Shown here: in pieces, positions 3,101-41,000 of the stretch | Layout of the letters: every line of letters starts with the position of its first letter | Position numbering within the stretch: position 1 is the first letter of the stretch | Source: Sipunculus nudus | Lineage: Eukaryota > Annelida > Sipuncula > Golfingiida > Sipunculidae | Reading direction: 5' to 3' | Assembly (NCBI GenBank): GCA_026874595.1 | Contig: CM049307.1 | Coordinates: forward strand, 81,692,643-81,756,642 | DNA length: 64,000 nucleotides | Position numbers and translations under genes: made by a program | Notes under the pieces: generated by a model | Seen by the model: the letters and a program-made list of their open reading frames with translations, nothing else | Told to the model about the DNA's origin: nothing | Databases searched by the model: none

Positions 3101-6100
3101 TCTAGTTAATGCACCATGGGGGGGGGGGAGTGCAGGGCAGAGGGCGAGCCTGCTAGTAGTGGCCAAGCTGAGCCAAGGCAAGCTGCCTGGGGTGGGTTAC
3201 ATAATGCAAGCGAAGGCTGTGTTACTAGGTGGGCTAGATGTAAACAACACTTGACATGGTGTATGAAAACTTGAATAAAAGCTACTCTTTTCAATTAATT
3301 CCCTTGAAATTTCAGATTTTAAAAGATTAAATTCTTATGTATATATGCTGTGAAAATTAAATCAACAGTGTTTACAGGGAAAAAATGTGCCATTGCCAAA
3401 GTTGGACAAAATTTAAGGAATTGATTTTTTATTTATGCTAATAACTTGAAAAATTGGCAAAATTCAGATCTAATTTTGGGTAAACAATTGAATCTTGATT
3501 AAATAAAATTATATTCCTGAAAAAAAGTCTCCAGCTTCAGCAATTCTCATGTTAGGTGAGTAAATATATTTCCTGATTTTTTAAAAATTGCATTATATTT
3601 GGGCCCATAACTTCAAAATAATACCCAATACTGACCTAATTTTTGGTATGTTCATAGAAAATGTATGGAAGAATATGAATACTAAATATGATCAAAAACA
3701 GATCAGTGGTTTTGATATTAAGCAGCCTTGAAGTGTAAAAATGGCTTTTTTATGGAAAACAGAGGTTTTTTCTTAATATCTCGAAGGAACGAAGTCCTAA
3801 TGACCCAATATTCGGTATGGTAGGAGATTTTGGGTACATCTAATGGTATGCAAAATTTTGGATTCTTGGTCCAACTGTTTTAAAACTTGCCCTGTTAAAG
3901 GACGGACAGCCGGATGGCCGGACGGCCGACGTACAAAGGACCACGACTATAGCTCAGATGACTTATAGTCAGCTGAGCTAAAAATCACACTGATTCTTGT
4001 CAGAGCCATCAATAATCACACTGATTTTTGTCAGCGCCATCCATAATTATACTGATTCATGTTAGAGCCATAAAAAAATCACAATGATTTTTTCAGCACC
4101 ATCCATAATTGTATTGATTCTTGTCAGTACCATTGACAATCTCATTGATTCTTGTCAGCGACATGGATGTCTGACCTGGTGTTTTATATTTAATATATCA
4201 ATATTCCAAGCAAACCCTATCATAATATACTTGATTCAAATGAATTTTGTCAAGTGAATCAAAAGACACCTACTGAGACATTAGAAGTATCAAAGTGGTG
4301 AGCGGCACTGTCGTTGATGTAGACGTTGAACGCGATGTATCCTTGCATGTCTTGTTGGAAGTAAATGTTTGTGCGAATTATCCCATCAAGGACACCCAAG
4401 GTGAATGGGTCCTTCTCTCCTCGCTGTTCCAGCTGCTCTCGTAATGGGTCAGAAATAATGAACGGAGGCTGGATGTAGAAGTACATGATGCTGTTGTTAC
4501 CCTCATCAGCATCAAACGCGTAATCCTGAGAGAAAAACAAACAAATAGATTAAAAACAAAGTGATTCCTGCCAATCCTGGTTTCTTCAGGAACTTAAGAG
4601 GCCATATTTTACTGGGTTAGTCATTTTTATTACGTGGTTATCAAAAAAAGTAAAACTTCAGTAATATGCTCACTGCTGCATCAGGTTTTAAAGACACAAT
4701 CCTGGTGATTTTGCTTTTGAAGTGTCTGGAGCCATGGCAAGTGTGACCTAAGGGGGGCATTTTCTACATTTTCCCATAAATCTTGATCATTTGGGAAATT
4801 TCTTGAAGGGTCTATCCCAGTGCCTTATATCAGAATTCTGTCAATGTATAAAGCCAGTGAACTCAGCCCTTGAACTCAGCCCATGGAAACCTCACGAAAC
4901 AACTGGCAGAAGTAGCAGAACTATCCAAACATAAGAACAGCTAGAGAATATGCTAGTACTGAAAAAGGAAAAACGGCATGACTTGAGTTTACAGCCCCAA
5001 TGAAGCCCCACTTTTATGGGTTTATTCTTGCTAGTTTCTTAATTTGCACCATATTAGGAAAAAAAGTCATGCAAGTCATGATGACAATTTATGTGCTATG
5101 GAGTGCTCTCTTTTACTGATTTCCTTAAGAGATCAAGCGTTTTTTGTTCTCAGAAGTAATTGTTCTGATAACCCACTGATTTCGCAGGATGCACCATTTG
5201 TCAAATACTGGACATTATCAGAAACTGACTGACTAAAGTATACATTGACGACAACATTTTAGTGAAAGTTTTCCATTAATTTAATCTATTTATGACATGA
5301 AATAGATTGAAATTATTGCAGTATCTATACATTTACCTGAATTTTTTCAAACCTTCCAAATTTTTGTTCTTTGTTCGGAATACAGAGAAACTATCAATAT
5401 TTCTTTTCAGTTTTCAATATCAGATAAACTATCTTTTGTATAAACATTCTTCATATTTTTTGCAAAGCAGTGGATATTACAAACCTTTAGGTTTAAAACT
5501 GGCTCTGCAAATTGTGTATCCTTTGTCACCCCTGCCGTGAACCATTTCCTTAAGAATCGTGGTGGATTGTCATTGATGTCTTCAACTTTGACCTCCACCA
5601 AGAGCATTGTGGGATTGCTAGCATTCCATGCCTGGTCCTGATTCTCTTCCCGCATCCAGTAATCAGAGTGACAGTCACCGCTGGCCTGCAGCAGTAACTG
5701 AACAGAGGGCACCTGCTCCCGGTCTAGACTGGCACCCAGCCACAAACCTCCAGTAGTCTTGTTAATGTGAAACTGGTCCTTGTAAGGTTTATCACCACCT
5801 ACAACAAGAAACACAAAGGACTAATCAAATCCAGATCCATACAACTGGTGAAGCAATAATTAAATTTAATGATATTTCAATTGCTTTCAAAATGCTTTGA
5901 CATATATTTCCAGATATTGATAAATTTATGAATCATAAGGTGTGCGACTGAATTTTTCATTCTGTTTTTTTTCCCCTCATATTTTCATCATATTTCATTG
6001 TAACACAGTATCCAGAGTCTAATGAAAATTATGTTCATGTGTATTTTTTCTAATCCCAGAGCATTTTGTGTGTACAATCATCAAGAGATATGAAAGCATG

Positions 6101-9100: not shown

Positions 9101-12100
9101 CGGTTTCAAAACGTGCCACATCTACGGACGGACGGACGGACGGACGGACGGACAGACGGACGGACGACGGACAATGGACCACGACTATAGCTCAGATGAC
9201 TTGTAGTCAGCTGAGCTAATAAAAAGGATTAAATTTGTCCTTCTCTATGTTAAAACCTACCTGTAAGATAATAACAGATGATGGAGTTATTTCCAAGGTC
9301 AGGGTCATGGGCTAGGGACAAGTTTGCCACATAGATGTCACTGTGTTCTTCCTTGACTGACACGCGATATGGAGGTGGGTATTTTGTTCGATCAAATGTT
9401 GGTGGGTTGTCATCTTCATCTCCAGCGATGACCTTGAGAGTACGCCTGTCCTCAAACTGAACGGTCCCTCCATCATAAGCACGAACTTCAAGCTATAAAT
9501 ATGACAGAAATATTTTCATCTGCTAATTGTTAAAGAATAAACAGCAACAAATCACAGAGTGGAAGGCTATTTCAAGTAGCTATGGGAAGCAGTTTATACA
9601 AGTACAGTGGAACCCCGCCTTGCGACCATCCCGCAATAGTGACCACCCCCACAATTATGACCACTTTGGTCAGTCCCGAACATGGTCGTTTTTATGGGTT
9701 TCCACTGCATGTATATTTCTTCATACATATGTATAACACTTCATACAATCCAGACTTTTTTATTTCAAGGATTGAGTACTGCTGCAGAACTAAGTGTTTC
9801 ACATGAAATTATAAACAATAAGACATTATCTTTTATCACTGACATAACATCAAACTTTCTGTTTTTTATTATCATTGTTCAATTATACTATAATTTTTAT
9901 AATTTCTTTTCAAACATCATTAAATATATATATAAGAAAAATACATATATAAATAAGATATACTTTTAATGAAGGATCAGCCTGTATAATGAAATTTTAG
10001 GGTCAACAACTTGTATAATCCACAGTATTTACATTCTAATGTCATTTGATTCAAATTATTATGGCCATTTTTGGTAGGAAGACAAAATTTCAACCACATT
10101 AGTTTATTCCCGTCCAATGGTATTCATGTAATTTGGCCATTGATTATTGTTAAACCATTCTTGCATTGGAATGGGTTTGTGCTAATTTTGCTGGTTTTAT
10201 CCGGAACAGTTTTTCCATGGGTTGAGTTTACCAGCCTGATAGACTGGCATAATATCTGAAATATGGCCAAGCAACAGATCCTTTGTACATTTTCAGAAAT
10301 AACTTAAATTCTTTAGGATTTTTTGATAAAATTGAAAATTACCCCCCTTAGGACACACTTGACATCATTACAGACACGTCAAATCCAAAATATTGATAAA
10401 AGTAATTAAATAAAGCTAAGAAAGATCAAATGATTACAATTACCATCACTGCCTTTGGCTTCCTTATCAGATATTATTATAAATCAAAATTTATACTAAC
10501 ATAGTACACTTCTTGGACCTCTCTGTCAATATGTTTAGCAGTTCTGATTGTGCCATTCAGAGGGTTGATGCTGAACTTGGTCCAGTCCTGCTGCCGATTA
10601 GCCTCATTCTCAACAAACTCGTACCGTACTTCACCGTTACGCCCTGCATCCTTATCTTTGGCTATTACTTGGATGACGTATGTGCCTATTGGAACATTCT
10701 GTAATGGAAACATTAATATTTTAAACTGTATGTAATTAAAATTGATTAAATCTAAGCTCTAATGTTTTTGAATTCTAGCTTTAATGTTACTAAACATTTC
10801 CTGTATTTTGATATGTCTAGATACAGGAAATCACAATTATTTGCCTTTACACTTTTTTTCATAATATCACTTTGTACCAACCACAAAGGAGATCATGTTT
10901 TCATCCATATTTGTTTGTTGGTATGTTTGTTTGTTTATCTGTTATGATATTACAGAACAAGGGACCCATGGGTCACGGCGCTCAGCTGATCATGATTGGA
11001 CTATAAATGTATCACCATTGTTATACTATACTGAGTAGAAAAAGCTTATGAATATCATGGTCATGTTGGGCTTTTATAAAGGAATATAATGTAATAGGTA
11101 AGTAAATGATATATGAAATAATCTGACTGATGGATTAATATGGAGTAAAATATAGTGGTTTATTTTTTATTTATTTTGGAGGGGTCGAAAAAACAATTTA
11201 TTTGAGCAAATATGAATGCAATGATAGTATACTAAGCAGTGGTATAATGATGATAAGGCTATTTGTTGAAGGATTATAGTGTATGGAAAAACTGCAAGAT
11301 TTCAATTTGACAGATACAAGGTTATGATTAACTATGCTGATGAGGGGATTTATGAATTTGTGACTGTATGACATGATATCTTGACAAGATCGGTCTTGAC
11401 AAGGTACATTATTTTGATGACCCTCACGTCTACATATTACACAATATTGACATAATTTCTGGTCAACAGTGCTGAACCACCTAGAAGGTTAAAATATTAA
11501 AAATATGATGAAATGTAGATAAAGTTTGAGGGGAAGAGGTAATTTGGGCCATGGTTGGTTTATATGATTGAAGAAAATGTTGCAAATAATATTTGAGATC
11601 TGACCACGCCTTTCCATTGGTTACATTTTTGATAAGCTGTTGACAGTTCAACAGTTTACACATTTGTCTGATGAGATCCAATTTATTTGGTAAACCTTTT
11701 TTATCAATTTTATGATATGTATACAGTTGCCATAACGTCCCCACTCCACAGGTGCAATGACCTTATGGGGGGGGGGGGGGTGTTGTGTTATGATCAGAGT
11801 TACAACGCCTCTGTCTCTCTGTAGATATTTTCTTTATTTATTAAATTTTATGCTATAGCCATAGAACTATTGTTCACAGTGCCAAGGAGCAAAGCCTCAG
11901 TGGGATGAAGAAGGGGATGGTGAGAGTTACAACACCCTTGCATATACATACAGGATATGAAATTTAATTCAACAGTGCTTATAAAAAAAAAGTTTATTCA
12001 TGAACATTAAATATTTAAAACAGGCAGAAAGATGGAGAAACAAAGCAAATCATTTTTTTCCCCATTCTACTGAGCCAATAAAAAATTAACAATATTTGCA

Positions 12101-12351
12101 TTTATTCCTTTTTTTCATTACATAATTTTTATCCAGGTTTACGAATGTTACTATAAATTTACAGTATAACATACATGTGATTGTGAATATTTCAGTTGAT
12201 TCACATTTCTAAATTGCATCAACATTTATAGCTAATGTATCTAGTTTATAGTACCTGTCAAACGAAATGGGATGGAGGGAGGAAGGGAGGCAATAAGGGT
12301 GAGAGAGAGAGAGAGAGAGAGAGAGAAAGATGGAGAGAGAAAGAGAAAAAG

Positions 12352-12401
<50 letters not shown>

Positions 12402-12420
12402 AAGAGAGAGCTGGAGTGCC

Positions 12421-12451
<31 letters not shown>

Positions 12452-15400: not shown

Positions 15401-18400
15401 ACCCAGTCTGCAGAAACTGATGGAACAGCTCATGATCAATATGTATGCCGAAAATCATGACCATCAGTGTTGTAGTTATTGAAATACTGCAGTTTTTGTA
15501 TCAAATTTTCCATTATTCTGGGGGGGGGGGGGTATTTTGGACCCATACAGCTTAAAGAATATGGGTAACAGAGACCTAATTTCAAGTTTCCACGGAGACT
15601 TTTCATGGGTCTCCCTGTGTGTCAAGAATGAAGATTCTGGGTCCAGTTTTTATGATTTGTGCCCTGTTAACAGATGTTCATATCTTTAAAGGTCTCAAAA
15701 ATACAGAAAAATTTCGTAAAAAAAAACGAACAAATACAGGTGGTGCCACCAGTCTGCAGAAACTTATGAAACACTCCATGATCAATATCCATGCAAACAA
15801 TTATGGTTATCTCTGCATTAGTTGTTCAGTTACTTTAGCTTTTGTATCAAATTTTCCATTATTCTGAGCTGTACTTTGGAGTGCCATAGCTCAAAGGATA
15901 TGGGTAACAGAGACCAAATTTCAGGTTTCCATGGAGACTTATCATGGGTCTCCCTGTGTGTCAAGAACGAAGATTCTAGGTCCAGTCGTTACGATTTGTA
16001 CCCTGTTGACAGATAACTACATCCTTAAAGGTCTCAAAAATGGAGAAAACAATTCGTGAACATTGAAAAATACAGGTGGCGCCACCAGTCTGCACAAACT
16101 GATGAAACATCTCATGATCAATATGTATGTCGAAAATCATGACCATCAGTGATGTAGTTAATTAGATATTGAAGTTATTGTATGAAATTTTTTACTATTC
16201 TGGGGGGTAATTTTGGGCCCCATAGCTCGAAGGATATGGGTAACAGAGACCTAATTTCTGGTTTCCATGGAGACTTTTCATAGGTCTCTCAGTGTGTCAA
16301 AAATGAAGATTCTAGGTCCAGTCGTTACGATTTGTGCCACGCTAACAGATGACAGCATCCTCAAAGGTCTCAAAAATAGAGGAAAAAATCGTAAAAAATC
16401 AAACAGTACAGGTGGCGCCACCAGTCTGCAGTAACTGATCGAACATCTCATGATCAATATGTATGCCAAAAATGAAGACCATCAGTGATGTAGTTATTGA
16501 AATATTGAAGTTTTTGTATGAAATTTTTTACTATTCTGGGGGGTACTTTGGGGCCCCATAGCTCGAAGGATATGGGTAACAGAGACCTAATTTCTGGTTT
16601 CCAAGGAGATTTTTCATGGACCTCTCAGTGTGTCAAGAATTAAGATTCTAAGTCCAGTCTTTGTGATTTGTGCCTTGTTAACAGATGTTCACATTTTTAA
16701 AGGTCTCAAAAATAGAGAAAAAAATTCGTAAAAAATCGAAAAATACAGGTGGCGCCACCAGTCTGCAGGAAGTGATGGAACATCTCATGATCAATATGTA
16801 TGCCAAAAATCATGACAATCAGTCAAGTAGTTAATGAGATATTGAAGTTTTTGTATGAAATTTTTGACTTTTCTGGGGGGTACTTTGGGGCCACATAGCT
16901 CGAAGGATATGGGTAACAGAGACCTAATTTCTGGTTTCCAAGGAGATTTTTTATGGACCTCTCAGAATCCCAAGTTACAAGGTTCTAGGTCCAGCGGTTA
17001 CGATTTGTGCCTGGTTAACGGACGGACAGACGGACAGACGGACGACGGACAAAGAGTGATCGCTATAGCTCAGATGACTTTCAGTCAGCTGAGCTAAAAA
17101 AACACTTCATCAAAACCTATATCCACAAACCTTTGTTAAGAGGTGGGATCAACGAGCCAAGGGAGACCCCTGAAAATTTGTGTGTGGATCCAGATAAAAG
17201 ATCAGATCCAATTAAATTGTTTTTTTTCTGAAAAAAAAATACTATTCTGATACAGGAATATGTTTTATTATATTATAATTTATAAATGTGAAGACTTTTT
17301 ATGATATTACAAAAATTGCTGTTCACAAAGTTTGCACTTACCTCCATAATCTCTGCAGTGTAGTTGTCTGGAGGGTAGATAATCTCTGGCTTATGGTCAT
17401 TCACATCCTCAATAAACAAGTACACAGTCGTAGAGTTTGACAGTGGGGGATGACCCTTGTCTGTCGCGATCACTGTAGTGTAATACCATCCAATATGTCC
17501 AGTGAGCGTCTGGTTGACGAAAATATCTCCATCGTTGGGACGGATATCAAAGAGACTAGATGCGTTAGTTTTTTGTTTATTAATAGAATACACAATAGCT
17601 GCATTCTCTCCTTCATCCGCATCTGTAGCCAAGACTCGACCAATCGCTGAGCCCACGTTAGCGTTTTCTTTGATATTATCAAAAGTGTAATATGGCTCTG
17701 TGAACTGAGGAGTCTGGTCGTTCACATCCAGAAGTTTAATTTTCATGTAGTTTGGTGTCTTTAACTGTGGCAGTGAGGGTGGGATGTTGTTATCCCGAGC
17801 TTCTATGGTAAGATCGTATTCTGCTCGTATTTCCCGATCCAAAGCACCACTAACTGTGATCACCCCCTGGAGGATAAAAAAGAACAATTCATCCATAAAA
17901 GTTGAAATTATTTTTATATATGTGGGGATAATGCCCAATCTGTCATCTTTTAGATTAGTTGCACCATGACTCCATTATAGGCCACAATGCTCAAAAGAGT
18001 ACAATTTCTTTGCCATACACTTGGCCCAACATACTAGTACACATGTGCACATAATTTTATGAGAACTTCAGGGCCAAAAGCACTTAAACAACACAGCACA
18101 TATTATCATTTTTTTTTTACAAATCTGGTTTGAAGTTTGAGAAGATTTTGCATAATATGAGAAATCTGGCTTGATGTGTGCCAAAGGTACAAAGCACAGA
18201 AAACGTGTTCAGCAGCATTTCCATGTGCTTGTACATGCATATGTGCGTATATGTGTGAAAAAGCAGTTGTGTTTCCATGTGTGCGTATATGCGTATATGC
18301 ATGAACTGGCAGACATATATTTGTACAGCGGATCAAGCAGGCCATCCACAAAACGATGGTTAAATGACATCCGTCATTTTTACCCAGAAATTCTGAGTTC

Positions 18401-21400
18401 ACCCAGACCCAGAAGCTCCTGTAGCGATTTTCAGGCATATATGCATATACGTTGACAGACACATCGAAACACCCCAGTCAAAAAATCATGAGCGATTTTT
18501 CACGCATATACACACATATGCATAAACGTGCACAATTGAAAACGCTGCTTTAATCCAAACTGAGAGCGGGTAAAATGAAAACTTGATGACTGCATCACAA
18601 CTCAGCTATGCCTACCAGAACAAATGTTTCTCCGATTACATTACTTCTTAAGTAAATTTGTGAAGAGTTAAACAAACCAATAATAGTAAAACATTTCACA
18701 TCCTATCAGAAGTATATTAAGTATTACTTACAGTAACATTGTTAATGGTGAACTTGAACTGGACTTCAGCCTCATTAACCAAGAAGTACATCACTCGCCC
18801 GTATTCCCCGCTGTCTTTATCAGTTGCAGAGACACGAGAAACATATGTCCCAATGGTTGCATTCTCCCATACATGTGATGTCTGGTTAAACAAGACCCAT
18901 TCAGGGCTATTATCATTGACATCTTCAATTTCAATGTGCACCTTTGCCGTGCTGTTAAGAGGAGGCTGTCCTGAATCCATTGCCATGACGGTGATGTTAA
19001 TCCACTTATGCTGCTCATGATCGACCTCCCGATCTAACAAAATCAGTCCTGTAGTACTCTCCACCTTGAACGATCTTGACTCCTCTGTATCGTATAAAAC
19101 CTCATACGTAACAACCCCCTGGTTTTTGTCAGGGTCAACTGCTGACACACGAGTGACCTCTGCCCCTGGACTTGCAGCCTCTGAGATGCGAGAAGTGTAG
19201 ACATTGCTCGGGACGAAAATGGGTTGATTGTCATTGACATCATCCAAGGTAATCTGAAGCTTAGCTGAAAGAAAGATTAACTTTGTTTTTAATGTAAATA
19301 TATATATAGAATCATTATAATAGGATTTTTTAAACGTAGCAGACTAAAAAGTAACCCAATTTGATAAGCCCATGATTCAAAATCTTTTTCTATTAATTTT
19401 GAAAGAAGTGGAGTAACAGTAAAAACTATTTTTTTTATACTTTTACAATCTGTGAGAAAGTAGGTGCTTTTTGGCATAATGAAATTTATAACAAACACAG
19501 TAGCTCACACTTTCTTCGCTCCTGAAAAACATCAATGCAAATGTTGAGACAATGTTTTACAAATTTAATTCTCACAAAAGTATAAAATGAATTTGAAAGA
19601 GCATGGGACAAGTGTTAATAATTGCAGAATTTTTCAAATCTCAGATTAATTCAAAATCACCCTTCTATACATCACATTTTTGCATATTTCCAAAAAATAA
19701 TTGTTAGAATTTATTATATGGGGATACTAATGAGACAACAACCACAAAATGGACAGACAGTAAGCAAATTTAACTACTTTTTTTTTAAATTCTTCTTTTT
19801 CAGCTTTCAATTTTTAAACATAAATATTTACCGGTAGCATTCTGCTGCGGAGGCTGCTCAGCATTTACATCCTCCACAAACACGGTCACGGTCACTCGCT
19901 CCACTGTCTCTCTGTCTAATGGACTCTTCACATACAGCGTCCCGTTCTCCTTCACGATGCCAAATAAACCCTGAAACGCAGGAATAAATCTTACTGATGC
20001 TGCTATATCTACTGTTTTATTATGATAATTAACATATCATCAGGCTTTTATAACATCTTCAAAGGAAAACCATAATTAAGTTAACATTTAATAAATGATT
20101 AATGGGCTATCCACTATCAATAAGTTTCCTGAATTTCAAAAGGCTGATGCAATCATTACTGAGATATTTTATCTCAAGTATGAATTTCATACTTCCACAA
20201 CCAAAAATGTTAAAATGTTGCAATTGTGCCTGCAACAACTGGCTGGGCCAATTTTCATCATTTTTTACATGGATATAATGTTATAAGTGCAAATGATGCA
20301 CAATGGTTCATTTTTGGGTTGCGTTAGGCTTTCAAGATTAGTGATAAAGATGTTGACATAAAGTCTCTAAAATATATGTATATGATTTCATAAATATGTA
20401 CCTGAAGATATGATGTATCCTGGAACTGGGTGCCATTTTCATGGAAACCTTCCACGAGGTCATCAAGAAGGTCATACTGCAGCAAAGCATTTTCATCAAG
20501 GTCTGTTGCTGTGTATGTGAAAAACATATGGCCAACTGGCTCACCTTCTGAAACCATCACAGATCTCTCATCTGGATTAAACACGGGTAATTTATTATTA
20601 ACATCTGTGATATTCACTTTAACTGTAGCAGTTCCTGTCAACGGGGGTGTGCCCCTATCAATTGCGAGAACATATAATGTATAGTCTTTTCCGTAAACAT
20701 CTCGATCCAGATCTGACCCAGATTCAACAGTGATTAATCCCGTATTAGCGTCAATCCGGAACTTATCTTTGGCTCCACTCTCAATTCTGTATATCATCTC
20801 GTTATTAGGTGCTGTTCTGTCATTGTCTTTAGCCTGGACCAAGGTTACATTGGTTCCTGAAAATATAAATTTTGCTGTATCTCTAGAGTTGTTTTTCATG
20901 TGTATACCTTTCAGTTTAATTGTTTATTTTTCAATCTCGTTTATTATTTTACATCAATCACATTCTTGTTGTTTTATTCATTAACATACATCAGTATCTT
21001 AAGTATTTCCACAATTATTAGTGTTCTTTTCCATTTTAACATTTCCACAATTATTATTATACTCTTCGATTTAAAATTTCAAAAAGTATCTTAAGTATTC
21101 ATAGAATTATCATACTGATTTAAGATTTCAAATTTCATGTTATACAATAAAACCCTAAATCATGACATCCTAAATTATTACCTCTGGACATATTCATGAT
21201 AATATAACTCTCAATTTACCCTTATGTAACAAGTTTGGAAAAACTTTCGTTAAACCACAAAATTTGTGTGTAAAGACAAGAAAACTGGGTATTTTTTCTG
21301 TCTATTTAGTTATCTGTGACTGCATGTGACTGAACAAGCCCTACCTCCAGTGCTGTTCTCTGGGATGATGGCCTCGTACATCTGCTGAAGGAAGTATGGG

Positions 21401-23655
21401 GTCTCATCATTCACATCCTGCAAACAAAATACAGTAAGTCCAATTTAATTGAATATATGTCATTAACAAGAAAACTATATTAAATCATCTGATCACACCA
21501 GTTAGGTAGAATTGCCACTATATGCCATATTGATATTCTTCAAAATGTCACCACAAACAAATTTAATGTGTTTTATCCATTTTGATATAAAACATCTTCT
21601 TTATTACCTTTTCAGGTTCTGTGAGAAGTACTTGGAGCTTTCAAGGTTGAGTAAAATTCTGGCTATCAATAAGGACAAGTAATGTACCTTAGTCTAAAGA
21701 CTGGTCTTAAACCCTTTTCATACACAAAACATTTTCAAACCGATTTGGCCAAACTGGTTTTAGTGCATTCATACAGGCTTCTAGCACCAATGTATTTTGT
21801 GTACATTTTACATGTTGAACAATGTAACAACATGCTGACACAAGCATTCATGCTTGTGAGGTATGACCAATTTGCTGCTTAAAAAACTGGTTCGAAACCT
21901 TTTAAGACATTAATCACGTAACAGTAAAGTAAGTTAATAAAACAATTCACATTCAAAATGTTTTAAAACCATCTCCTGAACTTGATCCAAAATGCTTTGG
22001 CCAAAATGGTTGAAAATGCTGTGGATTGCTGTGTGAATGCTCTAAAACATGTTCAAAACCATTTGAAAATGTTTTGCCTTTGCTGTGTGAAAGGTGATTT
22101 TTTGCTGGTCTCTGTGGTCAAGGTCCAAGTATCCAAGCAAAATGTTTAAGGTGTCTATTTTGGGGTTGATTTTGAGACCCAGGCATAAATTAGGGCTTCA
22201 AATCTTATGCACCATGCCATGCTAAGTTCTATCCTATCACAACCTAATCCTAATGTAACCACTGAAATCTGCAAAAGACACAATGCAAATTGAGTGTATT
22301 ATCACCTATCACTTATCACCTATCACTTATCACCTATCACTTATCACCTATTAATTATCACCTATCAAGTAGGATAATGTCTCAGAAATCTTGTTCATCT
22401 GAACAGTCAGGGTGGTGGGGGGGTAAACCAGTGATTGGAATCTGTGATTCTTTTTTTTAAGATTATTTACCTGTACATTTATGGTAACAGGAACTGTGCT
22501 GTTAAGTGGTGGTGTTCCCAGATCAGCTGCTGTTACCGTAAGCTGAAAGATTCCATTAGCAGATGGTGCCATCGCCTCATAATCCAGCGGAGAAACAAGC
22601 AGTACCTCCCCTGATGTTTGGTTGATGGTAAAATTCTTCAGTGGGTCACCGTCAGTAATTGTAAACTGGATGACATTATTTGGGTAGAGGTCGCCATCAG
22701 TGGCCTCCACTATGACAGGGCGATCTAATGTATTACTGTTCTCACTGACATAGCCTTCGTATTGGGATCGAGCAATGGAGGGTGCATTGTCGTTGACATC
22801 TTTTAGTATTACTCGTAATTCCACAGCTGTGCGAAGTCCGCCTCCATCCAATGCTTCGTATGTCAGATAGTGTGTGTCCACTTTCTCTCGATCCAGGAGA
22901 CTGTGATCCTGATCCGCATCTACATTCACTGTCACATCTCCCGTGTCTGGATCCACCACAAACCTGGAATGAAATATTTAAAATGTTCTACATCCAAGTA
23001 TGGCCACATGTGGCTCCCCCCAGGAGTATTTGTGGGGCAAGCAAGAGTTCTTGTGTCAGGATGCAGAATTATTTATCCCAGACTAGAGAAGTGCTTAATG
23101 AGACTACAATGGGACTTTGTGGTAGTGTTATAAAAATAAAGTAAAATAAAGTACGTAAAAGACAGTGTTTTAAAGTATTTTAAGATAATATATATATATG
23201 TCGAGGGAAGAATGAGAATCTAGGAAGATCCAGAATCCTCCCGGGAAAATCAGAATTCTGATTTTTCCCGGGAAAAATGAGAATCCAGAGAAGGTATGAA
23301 GGGATTCCCATTCTTCCCGGGAAGAATGAGAATTCTCATTCTTCCTGGGACAAGTGAGAATTCCAGTCTCTCCCAGGAAAAATGAGAATTCTAATTTTTC
23401 CAGGGAGAGATTGGAATTAAGTTTTGAAATTCAAACCTGGGAAAAATGAGAATTATCATTCTTCCCGGGAAGAATGGAAATTATTGATGCCAACTTAACT
23501 TTTATTATTTTCATACTTATTTCTCTTTTTCAGAAAGAAACTTTGATCATCTTTCTTTCACATTAATTATGAACTGTTCAAGTGTTAAAAAAGAAATAAA
23601 TAGTACACTCACACAAAATAGAAATATGTGAATAAAATATGAAGCTGACAAAAAG

Positions 23656-23723
<68 letters not shown>

Positions 23724-26700
23724 CAAGTTTGTTCATTTTTTGTTATAATATTATAAAAAAACCTAGGCTTGGTTTCTGAGATGAGGTTCACAGAGAATTA
23801 AAAAAAAATAAATTATGTTTAAAGGGCTTAGGAACAACTACACTTGTTGACACAACGTATTATGATGCTGTTTGTGTGTTTGTTGATCTGACCCCTTTGA
23901 TCAATAAACATCAATCAGTATTGACTGTGATGCAGTTTGATCAAAGGTTGTAGTGAAAATGAGTTTTCTACTTTTTTTCATGACAAAAATGTTACTGTTC
24001 TTTTAGCAATGATCAGTTAATAACATTAAAGTTTGGTTATAATACCGTAGTAAAATATGCAAACTTAACCCACCTTAACTATTAAAAGGATATCATTTAA
24101 CAAATTGTAGCTGGCTGGGAAAAATCAGAATTCTCATTATTCCCGGGAAAAATCAGAATCAAATCAAAGTATGAAATGATTCTCCTTTTTTCCCGAGAAG
24201 AATGGGAATTCCCATTATTCCTGGGAAAAATCAGAATTCTCATTTTTCCCAGGAAAAATGAGAATTCTGATTTTTCCCGGGAGGATTCCAGATCTTCCCA
24301 GATTCTCATTCTTCCCTCGACATATAAGTAATATTTTATATTTAGAATAGTTTCATGAATAAAAATTCTGATGCCCTCTACTTATAACTTTCATTTGGGT
24401 GTCTTTTCATGTATGGTTAAACCTCATCCTCTTGCAAACACCAAACTACAGAAATTCTGGCAAGAAGCAAGGGAGATGGAAAATGATTTAGTGAAAGCTT
24501 CACTGTGAACAAATAATACTGGTATGTCTTAATGAATCATTGGTCAAATATAACTGAGCCTCTAATTAAAATTGTCTTTTATTGCTGCCTTTGAACCAGG
24601 GGGGGACCTTAGGCAAAGTTATTTCTTTGGACAAATTGACACAAATTACTTTGATGGTATCAGGTATGGATAATTCAGTTTTCTGTGACTATGAACATAA
24701 TGTAGTTGAGTGTAAGTTTACACAAGTTATTTAAACAGCAACTGTTACTCACAGGTATGAACTTGGTCCCCGTATCTGATATGTGACCTTTCCATATTCA
24801 CCGGAGTCTTTGTCTGTAGCCTACAAAATATGAATACTATAAACCATGTATAGATAGATGGTGCTCTCTGATAAAATCACATAAACAACACTCCTTTCCC
24901 AGTCAAGCTCTCCCTGATGGGGTCTGGAATAACAAACATGAACCAGTTAATGAAATGTTGTTGTTCTATCGAGCACTTGCACACACACATAATAGAATGT
25001 AATATTTGAAAACATAATCTAATTAATATAATATAATGGAACATAATATGAATACGATTATATAACACTGAATTATATATATAAGAATTATATAAATATG
25101 ATATAATATAACATAAAAATATAACATATATTTCATTCTCTACAAGGGAAATGATGTTACCATAATTTGATGTTTTAGAATTTTCAATTAGCTTATTGAA
25201 ATTATATAATAAGAATCTTTGTCCCTGCGAGATTCAGTTTACAAATATAAACATACATAAAATACATATAAAATAATAAATAAAACACAAGGGAATCTTG
25301 GAGTGTAGAGACATCATTTCTTGGATAAATATGACATTACTGTGAGAGTATGATCCAAAACTTGACCTCTGACCTTTGAATAAAATATATAAAGAATATT
25401 TGGATAAATTTGAAGAAATTCGCTTACAGTTATTCTTGTAACAAAGGTTCCTTTTGGTGAGTTTTCATCTATTGATGCATTGTATTCACTCTGACTGAAC
25501 ATCGGCCAATTGTCGTTCACATCTTGAAGATAAATTGTCACGTTGGTTCGTCCCTCAAACTGCTCAGGTGTGCTTTCCTCTCTTGCAACCACCTTTAACG
25601 AGAAAACATTTCACAGGTAGACACATCACATTTGCATGGCTATCAATATTACATTTTCTGAGGCATGCAGAATAAAAATATTTAACAATTTTATTCAGTT
25701 TAAGGTACCTGAGTTTATATCAGTTGTATGTTAGGGAATGAGACTAATAAGGGTTGGTGAATTTACTTCCATGTTAATATTTAGCTCAAGCTTTTTAGGA
25801 GGCCTTTTAATCCCAGGTCCCCTAAGAGGCAAAACCATCAATGATCACATTTCCTTCTTCTTCTGTCTGTGTTTGCATCAAATACAGATGACTTTCCAAA
25901 AATGACATTTGGTCAGAGTAAAATCACAGGTGACTGATTTGTATCTGCAATTATTTCTAACCATGACCTAATTTTCAAGACTGTATGCTTCATAGTCTAT
26001 TTTTGTTCAGGTAGTAGGGGGGTCCCTTTTGATATATCACTTGATGATTGCACACTTCTAGGTTGATTTTGTGGATTCTCAATTAGTGCTAACAACAATA
26101 ATATTGATTCTTGTTAGAGCCATCGATAATCATGTCAATTCTCCCAAAAGGACCATTATATATTGATATATATATATTGTACCTGCCTGCCATCAGAAGT
26201 TTCACAGTTCTACATGTACTTTAAACTGATATCATTGCACACCTCAGGCAACATTATTACAGGAAAAGAATCAACATAAGATGCTAGCTCAGGTACTCAC
26301 CTGGAATGAGTAGCTGTGCACAGTTTCATAATCTAATGCGGATGAATTTTTGACTCGGAGAAGGACAGTGGCTTCATTTAGTGCTTCATCTGGCACAACT
26401 TCAAAAACATCGAAAGGTTGGCCATTCTGTTCCACCATCAACTCAAAGCGACCATTTGGTCCCTGAAAAAAGGCAAGCCGATTAAATGAAAATTTTCATC
26501 AACATTATTCCTGCCAATGAAGTAGAGAGCAGAACAAATTATATATATTTTTTTTCAAATGATTGATGTATGAATTTGGTAACATTTTACTTCTTATGTA
26601 ATGGCAACAAGTCTGGAAAGAAAAACTTTCTTGAAGATACTCATCAGATTCTACTGCAATAGAAATAATTTAATCTATTGGCTGCAATTGGTGCCATTTT

Positions 26701-29700
26701 TATTCAATTAAAATCTATTAACCCAATGAAATAATAAATTCTTTTGTGTGACTGAAACCCAACAGATAATAAATGGCTTTTGTAAATCATATTAATTTTG
26801 TGGAATAAATTTCCCATCCATTGTCTCCAATCTACTAACAATAATCATTACGCAGCAAAAGCCAGACACAAAACATATGGGTCAACATAGGCAAACCCAA
26901 GTGGGCCCCACATGTGTCTGCTATCTCGGTTGCTAGAATTCATAGCCTGAATATTACAGGAATTGCTTTAGTTAATGTTTCTTAAAAACTTAGCCTTTTT
27001 ACCTCGTCCATGTCTCGCACAATAATCTCCCTGGTAAGTGTGACTGGGATTTTGGACTGCGTGTTCTCCTGAACGGTGCCATTGTAGAAACCATGCTCGA
27101 ACGTCGGCACCTGGTCATTCACGTCTAGGATACGAATAGTCGCTGTAGTCTGCGCTGTGGTCTCTCCTTTGGGGTTGTCTGTTACCTCCTGAGTCTGCAG
27201 AAAACAATCCACTTTTTAATGTTAACAGTAATTTTTATATCATTCATGGCCTTGAGAAAATTTCAATTCAGAAGCAAATTTTAAAATCTGCTAAGTTTCT
27301 GTTTTTATAGCATACAAGCAGATCTAGAGTCAATATAATTTTAACATGCAAAATAGCAGCCCTACCATACAGTTTTAAGAAAGTGGATGAGATAAACCTG
27401 CAGTCAGATGAGGACAGAGAATCAATATGCATATGGAGATTGGTGGCAAGGGACATGTATAGGCAAACTTCAATGTGGAATAACACTTTTGATTTACCAC
27501 ACCCAAACCCTCAAATTAAATAAGGATACTGTGGAACCTCTCTATGAGTGACATTGGCAGAAACTGGATTTCTGATCCTAACAGAGATATCCCTGTATAT
27601 ACCAAAATTTTACAGTCTATATAGATTCATAATTATACGATATGCCATTAACTTTCCTATCAGCAAACCTCCAGGAAGAGACATATCCCTGTACTTACCT
27701 TCTTGCGCCTAATCATTTCACTGATTTCATTATTTAAATTTTTTCTAATTGAATATTCCGGAATGTACAAATGAAATACATTACCAGATTACATTTCTAA
27801 AATACTAAGATTTCCATGCTATCTTTTTTTTATCTGACTGATCTTTCATACTTAATAAAAACAGATTTGGCCTTTTCATTATTACACTTTAATAATGAAC
27901 TCTTCGAACCAAGACTTCATAGTTTATATTGCAGCAGCAGGTGCTTCAAGAGAGAGATAGAAAAAGAGAGGGGGAGAACAGGACTTACTTTTTATGAGCT
28001 TTTAAAGGCATGAATAGTATTATTTACCTTAATTCCAATCTGTAAAGCTCCAAATTCTGCCAGGACTCTGGGGTCCTCCCTGTTCATCAGCTTAGCCACT
28101 GTGATGAGGCCAGTGCTGGCGTTTAGTTGAAAGTAATCATGATAACCTGAGAGGAAAGAAAATGTAACCAGTGAAATATGAATACTTATGACAAAGGCTT
28201 TACAGCACAGAAACATATTTACTTTAAGTAAATATACTACTTATACATTAACTTATACCAGCATTACTAACACAGAAATTATGGTGATGAACTAATGATG
28301 CCATGTATAATGTCTCTGTGGTAGTGGATTATGACTTGGAGATTTTATATCAATCCTTTACTCATTTGAGTAAACATTGACTTGTTAGTAACTTCAACAT
28401 TTTACCTTTAAAAAATAAATTTTTCTTTTAGTTCCAATTAATGTGTGAATTAGCTTGAATAAATGCTTGGGGTGGGAGGGGGTGATTCTTTAACATTAGA
28501 ATTGAACATAGGCTATAATTATTACAGCAGTAAAAGATACCAGAATGGCTGCTTTTCTGACAAGAAAATGGACATGTGCTTTATTGGTGAACTTTCAATT
28601 GTAAACCCATATGTATATTCATTTGCCTTAGGGCAGAAGGCTTTATCAGGTGGTGACACTATGAATATTCATCAGGTCTAGGGAATGAATATTCATATAT
28701 GGTAATAACTCTTGTCAAGATGGCCCCTGGCTATAGAGATCTACATGCAGGCTTAATGATGCATTAACAAGCAATAGTCTGATCATGTCTTATCATACAG
28801 AACTTAATGTGGCATCTGCTCTGTTTTGAATAAACTACACACATGACAAGCATTTTGATTATTAACATTTTAATATGCAGAAAATGCCAGGCAGTAAAAC
28901 CATCAAATCAGCATAGATTACTGGTGTAGGCCTTAAAGGGTGTTAAAATTATTACCTTTACACATAAATTATGGCCTCCCCCCCCATTTGAAAATAAAAA
29001 TATGACCTATACATGATGTACTGTTGATAAATTGAAATAAGGGTTAAGTTCACATGATAGTCATAATGATTTGTTTTAACCATCCTGTCTTTCAGAGTGC
29101 TTGTACAATTTCAGGGCTATTAAAGGGGCCTATTCACTTGCCTTTTGAAAAAGAATTTATGTGATTTCTGGCTTCCTCTGTGAATATATTAATGATCTAA
29201 GGATAATTCTGTTTATGAAAAGTTCTTAAAACACCTCCATGAAGGATGTATGAACTTCTTTGTCAACAATGTGTTTGTAAACACAGCAAAGTTGACAAGC
29301 GTGAAAAACATATGACCTGAGGTGGTAGGTTGCATATATGCTGAGGTAGAAAGGTCACTTAATTGTTGCAAAATGCCAATTGCAAAGCTCTGGTATACAT
29401 ATGACTTGCCACCAGATGCCCTTGTTGAATTTGTTCTGATCATTTTAGAAGGCCCCACATATTGTTGATATAAACAAAACAAAAGAAGGGCACCCCAAAA
29501 TGGAGCATCCCCTCGCATGGGAGCATAATGATATGGGGTGTATTACGCAAGTGTTAAAATGAGGTGGGGAGGTGTGCGAGCTTGAGCTTTGATGTGAAAC
29601 TCAATAAGTTGTATGTGTATCGGTGTGTGAGGCATATCTGCGAGATGAAAGGTTTTGGTCAAACGGTTTGGCTTGAAATTGATCCATAAGCTTTTTCAAG

Positions 29701-32043: not shown

Positions 32044-35000
32044 ATATCCTAAAATTTCTCACTTAAGCATTCTTGATTCAGTCTGGTATACAATACTACA
32101 GGTATTGACCATTGGGACCAAAAAAAGAGTACACACAGATGCTGCAAATAAAGCATCCATTCAGCACTCCTAAGGCAAAAAAACTGCAAACAATTCAGTA
32201 TACAGCACATATAAGGAAAAATCAATTCAACAGGAGGAGGGTTAAGTTTATCGCCTTTTTTTATAAAAGCTCCAAGGGATTACCTTAAGTTTATAAAGAT
32301 CAGATAGGTGATCGGGCCCCTTTAAGGAAATCACAAAGCAGAGGTAAGCGCTTCACTGAGTAAGATCACTGACCTGTTGTGAATGTATAGTTGACAGCAT
32401 TTGGTATTCCTGTGTCTCCATCTTGAGCCGTTACTTTGAGGATGGAACTCCCCTAAAACACACAGAATAAATACAGAATTGTATGGATAAAGCCATATAA
32501 CTGGCAAGTCTTGTGTAGTTCTAAAGGTGAAATAAAGACAAGTCATTAATACTTCAGGCATTAATTGACATTCAAACATATTTCTTTTCACCAAGGATTA
32601 TTGTAATTTAATTATTTACCTTTTCTTCTTCTCACATTGTTGTTTTCATTATATTGTATTACATATACCACATTTATTCAAAATTTTGAAAATTTACGAA
32701 CTTCCATTCTTTGACATTCATTGGGGACACCAAAACTTTTATGAATTTCCTTGGAATCTTCTGTACTGGCCCTTAGTAATATCATTGGTTATTCAAATGA
32801 TCATGAAAGCATATGATAAAAATTGATCTAAGTAGTGTAAAGGCATGGGGCTATGACACAAAAATCACCTTCAAAGCTATGCACCCTCTTCTGGTAAGGC
32901 CATTTGGAATTACTAAACAATATATTTTAGTGCAGGTTAAGTTCATTCCTTATAAGAGGGTTTTCTGTCCCTATAAATGAAAATCATTACCATAATGGAT
33001 CACAGGACAGAATAGCATGGTTGCACTCAATGACACCATCTGAGATAACTTATTATTAGTTAGTAAAGTCAGTAAATTTAATATAAATAATATATTATGA
33101 ATCAAGGACTTGCAAACATGATGAGATAAATAAGATGTTCTGATGGTCACATGACTTACTACTGTTGCATTCTCATGCACCTGGGCCAGGTAAGGTTCAT
33201 TATTGAAGAACGGTGGCGTATCCTGTACATCTAAGACACTGATGATTAAGTCTGTGGTACTGTTCAGACCTCCGCCATCCTGTAAATAATCATGAATATA
33301 ATCACATAAAATACAAGTGTTATATCTTAATGAAACTGTACAGACATGATTTCTGAACAAATAAGCTGCAAATATTATTTTTTAACTTTATAATTGAATC
33401 ACTATGTTAAAAGCCCCTACTGGCTCTCTGGATTGTACCCAAACATGCGTTTAGTTCTTACCATCAGAAAACTACTTATTTAAACTGCAATCATCCTGTA
33501 GTTTTGATTTATAAATAACACACAGGAGACATGGAATAATATATATTTATGTAAATAATGATATTTTTTAATTTGATCTCACAACCTTTTTCTGGAAATT
33601 GAATTGATAATTAAAGCAAGCACTTTAGCTTGAGGATTTAAGGGAGAAACCTGTTTCAAAGTCAAATTATATTTAATCATAAATATTGCTCATTCAGAAT
33701 GTGTTAAGTGTAGCAAGTTACCAATTTTCAAAACTGTTATACATGTATGAGTAGTTACTCAGGAGTGATCTGTGATATTTTATGAATATTTTAATGGTAT
33801 GGGTGTCATGTGAGTTACACCAGATACAGAATGTGTTGTTGGTCAAAAGGGTAATAAAGTGTAAGTTGGTTGAGAGTTCACTTGTGATATATGTGAATTT
33901 TACAGAAGTGTCTTATGTTCTAAACTGCTCAAAAGTGTCTTGTGTTGTTCAGACATTACTCAGTGGGTTTTATGAGCAGGTACTCATATCTTTACAAAAA
34001 AGTGTCCTTTTTTACTCCAAACTACTAGGAACTGCCTCCTGTTTTAAAAGTTACTCATGTTTTATGAGCAGGTGCTCAACATTGTTTTGTGACCGAGTAA
34101 AAGCCAGGGGCTGTGATTCAATAAATAGCCCTCTTTGTCTCATCATTTCATAATCACTATTGAACAAGATACTTATGTGATCAGGTGACACATGCTAAAT
34201 GTCCCTCTTTAACAGTGGAAGAAAATAAATATATGCTTGGCGCAAAGGAAAAGGCTAAACATCACAGAACATTTTTTTAAGAATATTCTCAGGTTTTTTT
34301 AAAACAAACTGATGAACAACTTTTTTTCCTTTTTACTCTGAATAAAGCAAAAGAAAAGATACCAACAAAAGCAGCCAGTATAAAACATGTGACATGTATG
34401 CTGCAAACTTCAGATTCAATGAAGCAGTTTAGTTTCATATTTAATAAATGACACTAGTGAATATGTTATATTTAACTGAACTTGAGACACAGAGTTCACA
34501 AAGCATTCAGCAATTGGTTATCTATAAAACATGGCCTGACATTTGAGAAAAATATAATAAATATCATCTACCCACACTCTGGAATGAATATAGTATCACC
34601 CACAATCTTTACTGAAACAGAAAAAGAACAGTTTAAAGTTTGTTCAACTGATCCTGTTTACTGATATCTCATACTGACCCTTGTAAGAGCAACTGATTAT
34701 CTTATTAATACTTGTCAGAGCTATTGATAATCTTATTAATACTTGACTGAGCCATTGATAATCTTATTATTTCTTGTCAGAGCCACTGATAATCTTATTA
34801 ATTCTTGTCAGTTGTCATAGCCATTGATAATCTTATTAATACTTGTCAGAGACATTGATAATCTTATTAATACTTGTCAAAGCCATTGATAATATTATTA
34901 ATTCTTGTCAGAGCCATTGATAATCTTATTAATTCTTGTCAGTTGTCAGAGCCATTGATAATCTTATTCATTCTTGTCAGAGCCATTGATAATCTTATTA

Positions 35001-38000: not shown

Positions 38001-41000
38001 ATCTTGTTTCCATGGCAACTGGAATACAAACCTTGGCCATAATCTCCAACTGGTAGAATTTTTCCGTCTCATAATCCAAGGTCCCTCTCAACGTCACGTT
38101 TCCAGTTACTTGGCCAATACTGAAGAGGTCGGTGGGTGTCTGAAATATAAACATTTATATGTTAACTGAAACCAACAAATTATTAACTTTCATCTTGCAC
38201 CTTATATAAGCAAATCTTTCACAAAATATTTTTCTTTTTTTCATACACAAGATGAACAAGTCCTTTTAAGCAAACATTTGTGTATAAATTAGTTATGGGT
38301 TTTATTTATAAACATTTTTTCTTATATACTATTTGGGAAAAACATATACTAGGCAATGTTCTGCAACCATGATTTGTCTCATGTTATGGAAATGTAATAA
38401 CTAGCAAATTAAAAGTATCTTATTTTTAGCCAGAGTAAAAATGGTCCAGGTCACATGATCATATAGGGTGATAGCCTCACACTGTGATAAAAACGCTGGG
38501 GGTTAAAGGTTATGATTGAATCTCAATTCCCTATATCAATTTTGTATTCTTTGGTAAATTCTCTTATAAAATTGTAAATGATGGCTAAAATTTAAGCATA
38601 TCAGAAGCAATGATATCAACAGTATTTTTCCTATAAAATGCATGCAACAATATAGCTTTATAACTGATATATGTAAAAAATACTTTCCACTTATTAATTA
38701 CGTAAAAGACATGATATTTATAACTGCCATCATTTTTACATACAGAATATAATGGCCATTATCCTAAGGAATTATGGTATATTATATTTCCTTCCAAATC
38801 AATTAGCACTAACGTAATATATGCACACATTAGTGGTCATGCTGAACTGACTGACTCACTGGAATAATGGCACATCTTACATGGTAAAATCATAAAGAAG
38901 CATGTGATTTTTTAATGTATTTTTTAAACAAAATGATCACAACAGATTTACACTTTAAGCATGTACAGCTAGCTGACAGAAATAAAGTACCACACCCAAT
39001 TAACCAGAATTTTTATTTACACTGACGTTAGCAACAGAAAATGATGATTCCATGGCAACCAAGATAAGAGAAAGACATGCAAGTAAAAGAAAACATAAAC
39101 CTTTACAAATCAGGTTGAAATTAAAAATGGCATCAAACATGGCATATACATACAGCCAACCAAAGCAAATGTTAACATAAAGAAATATTAACAAATTAAT
39201 AACTGCCAAAATGGAGAAGTCTTATAATTGTAGATTTAAATGTGGACTTGGAAATACATTTGATTGAATTTAAAGAAATGCTATTTATAGCATGACAAAG
39301 GGGCACTTGAAAATCACACCCAGAGAGGGTGAGAGCACACTAGAGCATTTCAACAAAATGCGTGACAAGCCAATTAAGCTCCCTCTTGACATGTGCTTCT
39401 TTTGTGCTGTTACTGATGACAGTTACATGAGTCTCCATGGCAACGCATGAATATAGATCTTGCCTGACAAGTCACTTATTTAGTAATAGACCACACCCAG
39501 GCTGAAAGATCTGCATCAGCCACTTTATTTACTTTAATCCTTGGTCACTGGAAAATTCATATATGTCCTATTTTTTCTCTACACAGCTGATATACACTAC
39601 TGTCTGTCAAGATCTTACTTTAACCACTGCTTGTTTAGCCAGTTTTTCAGGGTCTCAACACCAGGGCTGGCAAAATACCAAGAATAAAACCAACCAGAGG
39701 ATGATGTCATGGATTTACAACTTAATTTGGAGTTGGATGCACAATGAAATACCACACTCATCAATCTGATTACACTTCTTTACTCTGTGCGAGCCTTTGT
39801 GGTTAAACCTGGAGAATCTTGCTATACCAATTAAGCAGCAGTTACAACAAAGGAGATATTGAACAGCCGCAGTGTATCACCACTGCGTGAGGAGTGAATT
39901 ACTTTCCTCAAGAAAGTATCTTGAGTATAAACATCTAATAGAAATTAACACAGACTTTGAACAATATAATTATGAGATTCCCCTAGCAATGAATATATCA
40001 CATACAATCTTTATTATTATGAAAAACAAAAGTGACCAAACTTTTTTAGTGGAACTTAATCCTTATTATCTTTGGAAAAAGATAAAATTTCAATACAGTT
40101 AAAGTTTTTATTCACACAGAATAAACTTATTTTATTAAGTTTGAAAAAAATATAAAACTTTAAGAAAGGTATAAAATATTAATAAATCATTGCAACAATT
40201 GTGCCATTTTTTATGAAATATTCTTATTCCCAACACTTATGCAGAACCACTAAGCTTTATTCCACTCCAATGTGTCACAAGGGTTAGCTGGCACAAACAA
40301 TGCTTTGAATCAATAACTGAAACAAAAAGGTAAGAGAAAGGTACAGAAGCACCACAAAAATAACCACAACAGAATACCCAGAAGCAGCCAACAATATTAA
40401 CAGGGATAAAATTACCTTCTGGTTTGGCTGAAGATACAGAGAAAATGATATTACATATACTGATAATAATGTTATATTTGAATTGTCATAATATTTACAC
40501 TTTTTTTTTTAAATCATGGTATACTGAGAAAATTTCTTCTTTTACTTAAAAAAAACATTTCCTGATTTACACTAAAGGTCGAGCACATACAGGGAAACCT
40601 TCACTTATAGGACCTCTCTATTTCAGACACCTCTACATGATATTTGCTTGAGGCATTAATGTGAAAAGTAGAGTCAGAAAGCTGTATTCTCTCTAAAACA
40701 GGCACCTCTCCATAATAATAAGCAAAAATCCAGATCCCACCCTGTAATGTCTGTATAACTATGAGCTTTAACTCAAAATTTATATTCCAACTGAATAGTA
40801 AAGAAATATTGTGACAAGAAGTACCAAACACAAGCACAAATTTATGAATGGTCACAAAAGAATGAATACTGTACAGACTCCTGTAAAAAGGAAAATCTGA
40901 AAATCTGTTATGCTTATAATGAAAGGTCAAAGATTTTCTATCAAATAAATATTCCTACACCCCCTGTGGTAAACAACCATAGTGACAAGTGACCCATGGG

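Follow-up and report, generated by a model that had tools for sequence, protein, structure and literature searches.

The stretch of 64,000 nucleotides of Sipunculus nudus DNA considered here (contig CM049307.1, positions 81,692,643 to 81,756,642, called the window in the following) carries a CDH23-like multi-exon cadherin gene on its minus strand. As far as can be judged from its sequence, the gene is a CDH23 orthologue, and very probably it encodes a protein in which a conserved block of extracellular cadherin (EC) repeats, EC1-6, is joined at the EC6/EC7 linker to a block corresponding to EC20-27, a membrane-adjacent domain (MAD), a transmembrane (TM) helix and a tail of the PDZ-binding type, such that the 13 middle repeats of the vertebrate protein are absent. 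This half-length form, with 13 repeats fewer than in vertebrates, had been proposed in an earlier note on the same DNA and is supported by the block scores, the MAD and the EC profile. When the 14 window repeats were compared by local alignment with the 27 repeats of a provisional human CDH23 sequence, repeats 1-6 as a block were placed on human EC1-6 (score 868, next placement 580) and repeats 7-14 on human EC20-27 (1236, next placement 748), and because of these differences the block placement goes beyond chance. Repeats 7-8 taken alone are placed on EC20-21 (280, next 214), and the optimal single break lies after repeat 6 (2104 versus 2052 for the runner-up).

The domain preceding the TM helix is of the CDH23 type. 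Over 106 of its 113 residues it matches the PDB CDH23 chain 8tri (E 5.7e-21), the only other match up to an E value of 0.01 being a chance-like one (5e-4) to 24 residues of an unrelated viral protein, and with the MAD of the provisional human CDH23 it reaches a score of 213, which is 30.7 standard deviations above 300 shuffles (best shuffle 64). CDH23 chains from the PDB follow the order of the ectodomain, with 5w4t at residues 9-302 (EC1-3), 5uz8 at 868-1193 (EC9-11) and 8tri at 1187-1569, where it spans EC12-14 and enters the MAD (207.7 bits); the repeat content of these chains was partly taken as known and partly placed by alignment. By inspection, the protein appears to have a single TM helix and a C-terminal motif of the class I PDZ-binding type, TEI, and we take the human protein to end in TEL. 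It is extremely improbable that the gene encodes another large cadherin of the Fat, Dachsous, CELSR or protocadherin type. CELSR1 is the top single PDB match of the ectodomain, across several repeats, and FAT4- and CELSR2-like EC models are among the Pfam families listed, but EGF and laminin domains are missing from the eight families listed for the 1,570-residue part, the C-terminal half is matched in order by CDH23 chains, the block placement agrees, and the MAD points to CDH23 in both comparisons.

The initial gene model was obtained by translation, placement of splice sites and joining of exons; running from 47477 to 1603, it comprised 23 exons that encode 1,570 residues, with GT/AG ends, agreeing phases and zero stops. 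The gene continues past the low end of the window, and the genomic flanks yielded six more exons in a codon/splice scan combined with phase matching by eye, the ends of these last six exons also being set by eye. In full, the model consists of 29 exons encoding 1,818 residues, with GT/AG ends, consistent phases, no internal stop and a terminal stop; small extra tail exons are possible between the TM exon and -9021, and a signal peptide exon upstream of exon 1 was not found. It comprises 14 ECs, the CDH23-type MAD, one TM helix, called by inspection of the TM exon, and a tail ending in EFEATEI and a stop (last residues FEATEI). Gene model and repeat alignment confirm the count of 14 repeats given earlier; this is short of the 27 of the vertebrate type, and no further repeat was detected in the window. 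The features of the gene are listed below, with numbering continued below base 1 outside the window.

47409..47477, minus strand: exon 1, start of EC1 (GT/AG, phase, similarity to the CDH23 N-terminus)
44373..44524, minus strand: exon 2, EC1
42755..42844, minus strand: exon 3, EC1/EC2
41366..41452, minus strand: exon 4, EC2
38032..38139, minus strand: exon 5, EC2
33160..33279, minus strand: exon 6, EC2/EC3
32374..32452, minus strand: exon 7, EC3
28028..28146, minus strand: exon 8, EC3
27003..27194, minus strand: exon 9, EC3/EC4
26301..26462, minus strand: exon 10, EC4
25428..25592, minus strand: exon 11, EC4/EC5, weak acceptor, missed by the codon/splice scan
24753..24820, minus strand: exon 12, EC5
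22471..22963, minus strand: exon 13 (exon 15 of the earlier note), rest of EC5 and whole EC6, phase 0 end just before the EC6/EC7 linker (tblastn, human EC5-6, E 1e-23)
21418..22470, minus strand: junction intron, 1053 bp, no EC exon detected, with a stretch resembling a miniature inverted-repeat transposable element (MITE) with terminal inverted repeats
21345..21417, minus strand: exon 14, EC6/EC7 linker DVNDE and first strand of EC7
20402..20856, minus strand: exon 15, remainder of EC7 (EC20-like) and most of EC8 (EC21-like) (tblastn, human EC20-21, E 1e-17)
19832..19970, minus strand: exon 16, EC8
18732..19264, minus strand: exon 17, EC9-EC10 (EC22-23-like) (tblastn, human end of EC21 to EC23, E 2e-30)
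17342..17866, minus strand: exon 18, EC10-EC12 (EC23-25-like) (tblastn, E 2e-20)
10501..10698, minus strand: exon 19, EC12 (EC25-like) (tblastn, E 4e-12)
9261..9492, minus strand: exon 20, EC12/EC13
5485..5798, minus strand: exon 21, EC13/EC14 (EC26/27-like)
4274..4525, minus strand: exon 22, EC14 (EC27-like)
1603..1691, minus strand: exon 23, start of the MAD
720..806, minus strand: exon 24, MAD (YLSNITGAIINVD)
263..331, minus strand: exon 25, MAD
-288..-354, -1210..-1337, -9021..-9083 and -14206..-14536, minus strand, outside the window: exons 26-29, rest of the MAD, TM helix, tail and stop

The span 20402-22963, in which the earlier note had located the junction, corresponds exactly to exons 13-15 of the model (15-17 in the numbering used there). 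These exons are joined with GT/AG ends, matching phases (0, then 1) and no stops, and the sequence TPPLNSTVPVTI in EC6 as well as the YRIE-GA-D-F and DRGT-PL-GTA patterns in EC7 are present as described. The statement that the 1-kb junction intron harbors no further exon was likewise borne out, none being detected by the EC profile or the codon/splice scan. The profile, built from 41 ECs, namely the 14 repeats of the model, whose own exons match by construction, and the 27 human repeats including EC7-19, found no match in the two junction introns (1053 and 488 bp), and with the 2,951 six-frame peptides of the window it gave 34 stretches, of which 33 lie in model exons and one lies elsewhere at E = 7.7. 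In the codon/splice scan of the minus strand, which was trained on the model's own exons, missed exon 11 and ranked two MAD exons lower, the first 22 window candidates all corresponded to exons of the gene, one end being shifted in two of them, and candidates outside the model appeared only after them. A tblastn search of the window and its flanks with the provisional human CDH23 hit 15 places, every one overlapping a model exon, with a non-orthologous repeat as the best human match at six of them; the cytoplasmic exons were missed by this search and picked up by the codon/splice scan. It is highly unlikely that the short form is an artefact of assembly or gene model, with the middle exons lost from the assembly or located elsewhere: the reading frame runs on across the junction, the phases are correct there, the linker is canonical, the junction introns are short and free of N, and a join that is in frame and correct in phase would rarely be expected from a random deletion.

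The junction intron itself contains, at 21725-22076, the MITE-like stretch mentioned in the list, with 23-nt arms that are 87% complementary and 306 nt apart and with extra internal inverted copies, and, at 22299-22368, a tandem repeat with a 14-bp unit (TTATCACCTATCAC). Copies of a dispersed palindromic repeat (GAGAATTCTCATTCTTCCCGGGAAGAATGAG-like) are found nearby at 23230-23430 and 24097-24381.

At the level of blocks the repeats are collinear with CDH23, the support for single repeats being weak. In pairwise local alignments the expected human partner scores best for 12 of the 14 window repeats, and it leads equally often after correction for how generic each repeat is, the exceptions then being repeats 5 and 11. 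For repeat 7, the earlier note had claimed correspondence to EC20. This is favored by the pairwise scores (172 with human EC20 versus 120 with human EC7) and by the PDB, where the best CDH23 chain for repeats 7-8 is 5tfk, comprising EC19-21 (E 9.3e-42, 146.5 bits; 83.2 bits for the EC6-8 chain 5tfm), and where the EC20-21 register on 5tfk receives 98.8 bits versus 56.1 in the other register. The motifs of the window EC7 are divided, FRI-A-G-IT and DxDR recurring in human EC7, YRIE-GA-D-F and DRGT-PL-GTA in EC20.

A number of results weigh against the proposed reading or limit it. The human reference of 3,331 residues is a provisional one; its EC7-19 align with PDB CDH23 chains, almost from end to end in the case of the best chains, at about two bits per residue, and its MAD is in close agreement with 8tri, which makes these parts reliable, the remaining parts having been checked only by length and by matches to the window. 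In the pairwise scores repeat 4 prefers EC17 and repeat 5 prefers EC23 by one point. For repeat 1, where CDH23 has its PCDH15-binding tip with Ca2+ site 0, EC1 is best but weak (71) and EC18 is ahead in column bootstraps, the N-terminus reading QSNKPP, which resembles QVNRLP in the human protein. The expected partner leads in column bootstraps for nine of the 14 repeats, and a maximum likelihood (ML) tree of 41 repeats and 107 columns recovers six of the 14 pairs (3, 4, 6, 9, 12 and 14) and stars an implausible join of window repeats 1 and 10. As to repeat 7, EC20 is the best of 27 in 34% of the column bootstraps and ranks above EC7 in 81%, the ML tree leaves the repeat unplaced, constrained trees lie 1.3 log units above the free tree when it is grouped with human EC7 and 8.5 below when it is grouped with human EC20, and window EC6-EC7 match 5tfm with 132.5 bits, the register being that of EC6-EC7. 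The cytoplasmic tail alone is not significantly similar to the human one (score 51, z 3.5, best of 300 shuffles 59); its pieces SNPMW, YLQAALQ and the final TEI resemble ANPVW, YLRAAIQ and TEL there. Furthermore, the EC7/EC8 linker (20591-20605) reads DVNNK, not DxNDN, and is short of one Ca2+-site residue, the human EC20/EC21 linker presumably being DINDS. Genome searches for the partner PCDH15 with PF18432, the PCDH15 MAD and PCDH15 EC1-3 were empty or generic, which is uninformative: a query running from the human CDH23 MAD to the tail, the target of which is present, remained equally empty.

The EC-level tree that the earlier note had called for holds too little signal to tell EC20 and EC7 apart at this divergence. 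Neither the constraint with EC7 nor that with EC20 is rejected (p 0.53 and 0.33), and all five clade tests reject nothing. When the alignment is allowed one jump, the best crossover falls about 37 residues within repeat 7 (499 versus 472 near the repeat boundary), a gain of which part may be one avoided gap. What stands of the claim that exactly EC7-19 are missing is the number of thirteen; the edge is uncertain and would, from the alignments, fall anywhere from the EC6/EC7 boundary to a point about 40 residues inside EC7. Similarly, the equation of EC7 with EC20 is carried by the pairwise scores and the match to 5tfk, and bootstraps, trees and a crossover inside the repeat keep it from being firm.

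As to which length came first, the earlier note had leaned towards a 14-EC form as ancestral, citing insect Cad87A, which we take to be slightly shorter than 2,000 residues, a length suited to 14 ECs. An ancestral 14-EC form does not follow from the data: a test based on paralogue scores saw no late duplication in the vertebrate line, and the length of Cad87A is an assumed one. In this test, the score of each absent repeat with a human core repeat was set against that with the window orthologue of the same core repeat. With the short window repeat 1 left out together with its orthologue, the best-match differences averaged 40.8 for the absent and 45.6 for the core repeats (p 0.68); averaged over all pairs they were 10.9 and 8.4 (p 0.10). 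These scores hold no trace of a duplication long after the split, and one soon after it would give the same picture. The excess affinity of the absent repeats is highest for the repeats flanking the junction (window repeat 7 +25.8, window repeat 6 +20.4, the other 12 between -9.1 and +11.8), and on the human side for EC20 (+23.5) and EC6 (+20.5), followed by EC23 (+18.7); the chance of finding the flanking pair as the top two of 14 is 1 in 91, for a pattern noticed after the fact. This flank excess is alike in human and window, with differences of 0.2 (95% -9.4 to 10.8) and -2.4 (-24.6 to 18.3), and its equality argues against a late vertebrate duplication and does not polarize the change. The absent repeats score 105.6 among themselves and 96.6 with the rest, the rest scoring 88.3 among themselves. 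The flank excess fits an array that would have grown from, or been part of, the EC6-EC20 neighborhood around or before the split, and it can be reconciled with a gain towards vertebrates as well as with a loss here, so that polarity is left open.

We consider it just short of an even chance that the 14-EC form was that of the bilaterian ancestor and that tandem growth of the EC6/EC20 neighborhood on the vertebrate line added the 13 repeats. Such growth would account for the absent repeats having their largest excess affinity for the two junction repeats and scoring higher among themselves than with the rest, and the presumed length of Cad87A would suit it. It does not sit well with a flank excess that is the same for human and window, nor with absent repeats whose closeness to human paralogues does not exceed that of the core repeats, and a CDH23-like protein of a sea anemone has 44 repeats according to the available part of its description (PMC3899209). 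The reverse course, to which we assign slightly less than even probability as well, is that the long form is ancestral and that the 13 repeats were lost in this lineage or in all protostomes, perhaps by unequal recombination in a tandem array that left a hybrid EC7/EC20 behind. A best crossover within a repeat and a window EC7 bearing motifs of both human EC7 and human EC20 are what such a recombination would leave, and an old array would be suited by the equal flank excess in both species; on the other hand, the gain at the crossover, to which no null was applied, may reflect only the free choice of break point and the avoided gap. More tentatively, we suggest that CDH23 of bilaterians may have started with 14 ECs and that the half-filament of the tip link was doubled towards vertebrates via a tandem array at the EC6/EC20 join, both functional ends being left untouched.

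Whichever the direction, the half-length CDH23 would form a Ca2+-stiffened adhesive filament of 14 repeats, the length of which, judged by a repeat count of 14 versus 27, would be about half that in vertebrates. Its N-terminal tip may bind a partner cadherin across the gap between apical protrusions and its tail may be anchored to a harmonin-like PDZ scaffold; this adhesive or tip-link-like function we infer throughout, from the anatomy of the protein. By inspection of the translation, Ca2+-site residues are kept at the junction (SEN, DGD and LDYE in EC6, the linker DVNDE, and DND in EC7), and the EC6/EC7 join should therefore match an ordinary EC-EC link in stiffness. One could see in the middle repeats a module for length, gained in one lineage or lost in the other with both functional ends untouched. 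It suits this idea that, in the available text of a comparison of 13 species, conservation of CDH23 is higher at the ends than in the middle repeats (PMC8691648).

The systematic position of the genome is reflected in its Hox cluster on contig C12, which includes two homeodomains with UbdA-type peptides behind them (KKEIQAIKELNEQ, KKEKQQIKELNES), one with IQKLTGPN behind it, and one posterior homeodomain. We take these signatures to be those of Lox4, Lox2, Lox5 and Post2, on account of which the genome is lophotrochozoan. The cluster (C12:56362248-58768118, loci L015-L022 and L024) spans about 2.4 Mb, and the ten matches listed are all on the minus strand.

In comparison with vertebrate CDH23 (PDB 5w4t, 5tfk, 5uz8, 8tri), the repeat order in both blocks, the MAD, the one TM helix and the class I PDZ-binding-type end are alike, whereas there are 14 and not 27 ECs, EC6 is joined to an EC20-like repeat, and the tail has 133 residues here and 266 in the provisional human sequence. 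Drosophila Cad87A is presumably similar to the 14-EC gene in total length. In the accessible portion of one analysis it is one of four fly CDH23 candidates with a score of 2 out of 15, ds having 3 and CadN and Cad88C 2 (PMC10898740). The Nematostella CDH23-like protein is reported as a homologue on the stereocilia of a non-vertebrate but differs in its repeat number and in three reported membrane spans (PMC3899209, in part). Another lophotrochozoan, a planarian, has a CDH23 homologue, cdh-23, that was described in 2025 from photoreceptors, epidermis and ciliated stripes (PMC12626421, in part). CDH23 is not deuterostome-specific: the lophotrochozoan gene contradicts a 2023 survey that, in the sections available, stated such a restriction and whose protostomes include C. 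gigas and D. melanogaster (PMC10734073). A description of the EC1-6 plus EC20-27 form was not found in the literature searched, most subscription papers and supplements being outside that search.

Elsewhere in the genome, contig C10 (loci L001-L008, L027, L028 and L030-L032) shows, among the matches listed, dozens of long open frames that match cadherins, many of about 900-980 amino acids, spread over one chromosome, which suggests a large protocadherin expansion. Cephalopods and Lottia are named as the exceptions among invertebrates with regard to clustered protocadherins in the available part of PMC6339937. Within the window, a long CT/GA-rich simple repeat with serine/leucine-rich and arginine/glutamate-rich frames is located at 12209-12600; Rfam and tRNA searches found nothing, and a search of viral contigs found no relatives.

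The gene very probably represents a CDH23 orthologue with a naturally half-length ectodomain outside the deuterostomes. It offers a natural test of the 13 middle repeats, as length, elasticity and Ca2+ dependence could be compared between 14-EC and 27-EC molecules with the same kind of ends, and the sampling of a few more phyla would date the change in length.

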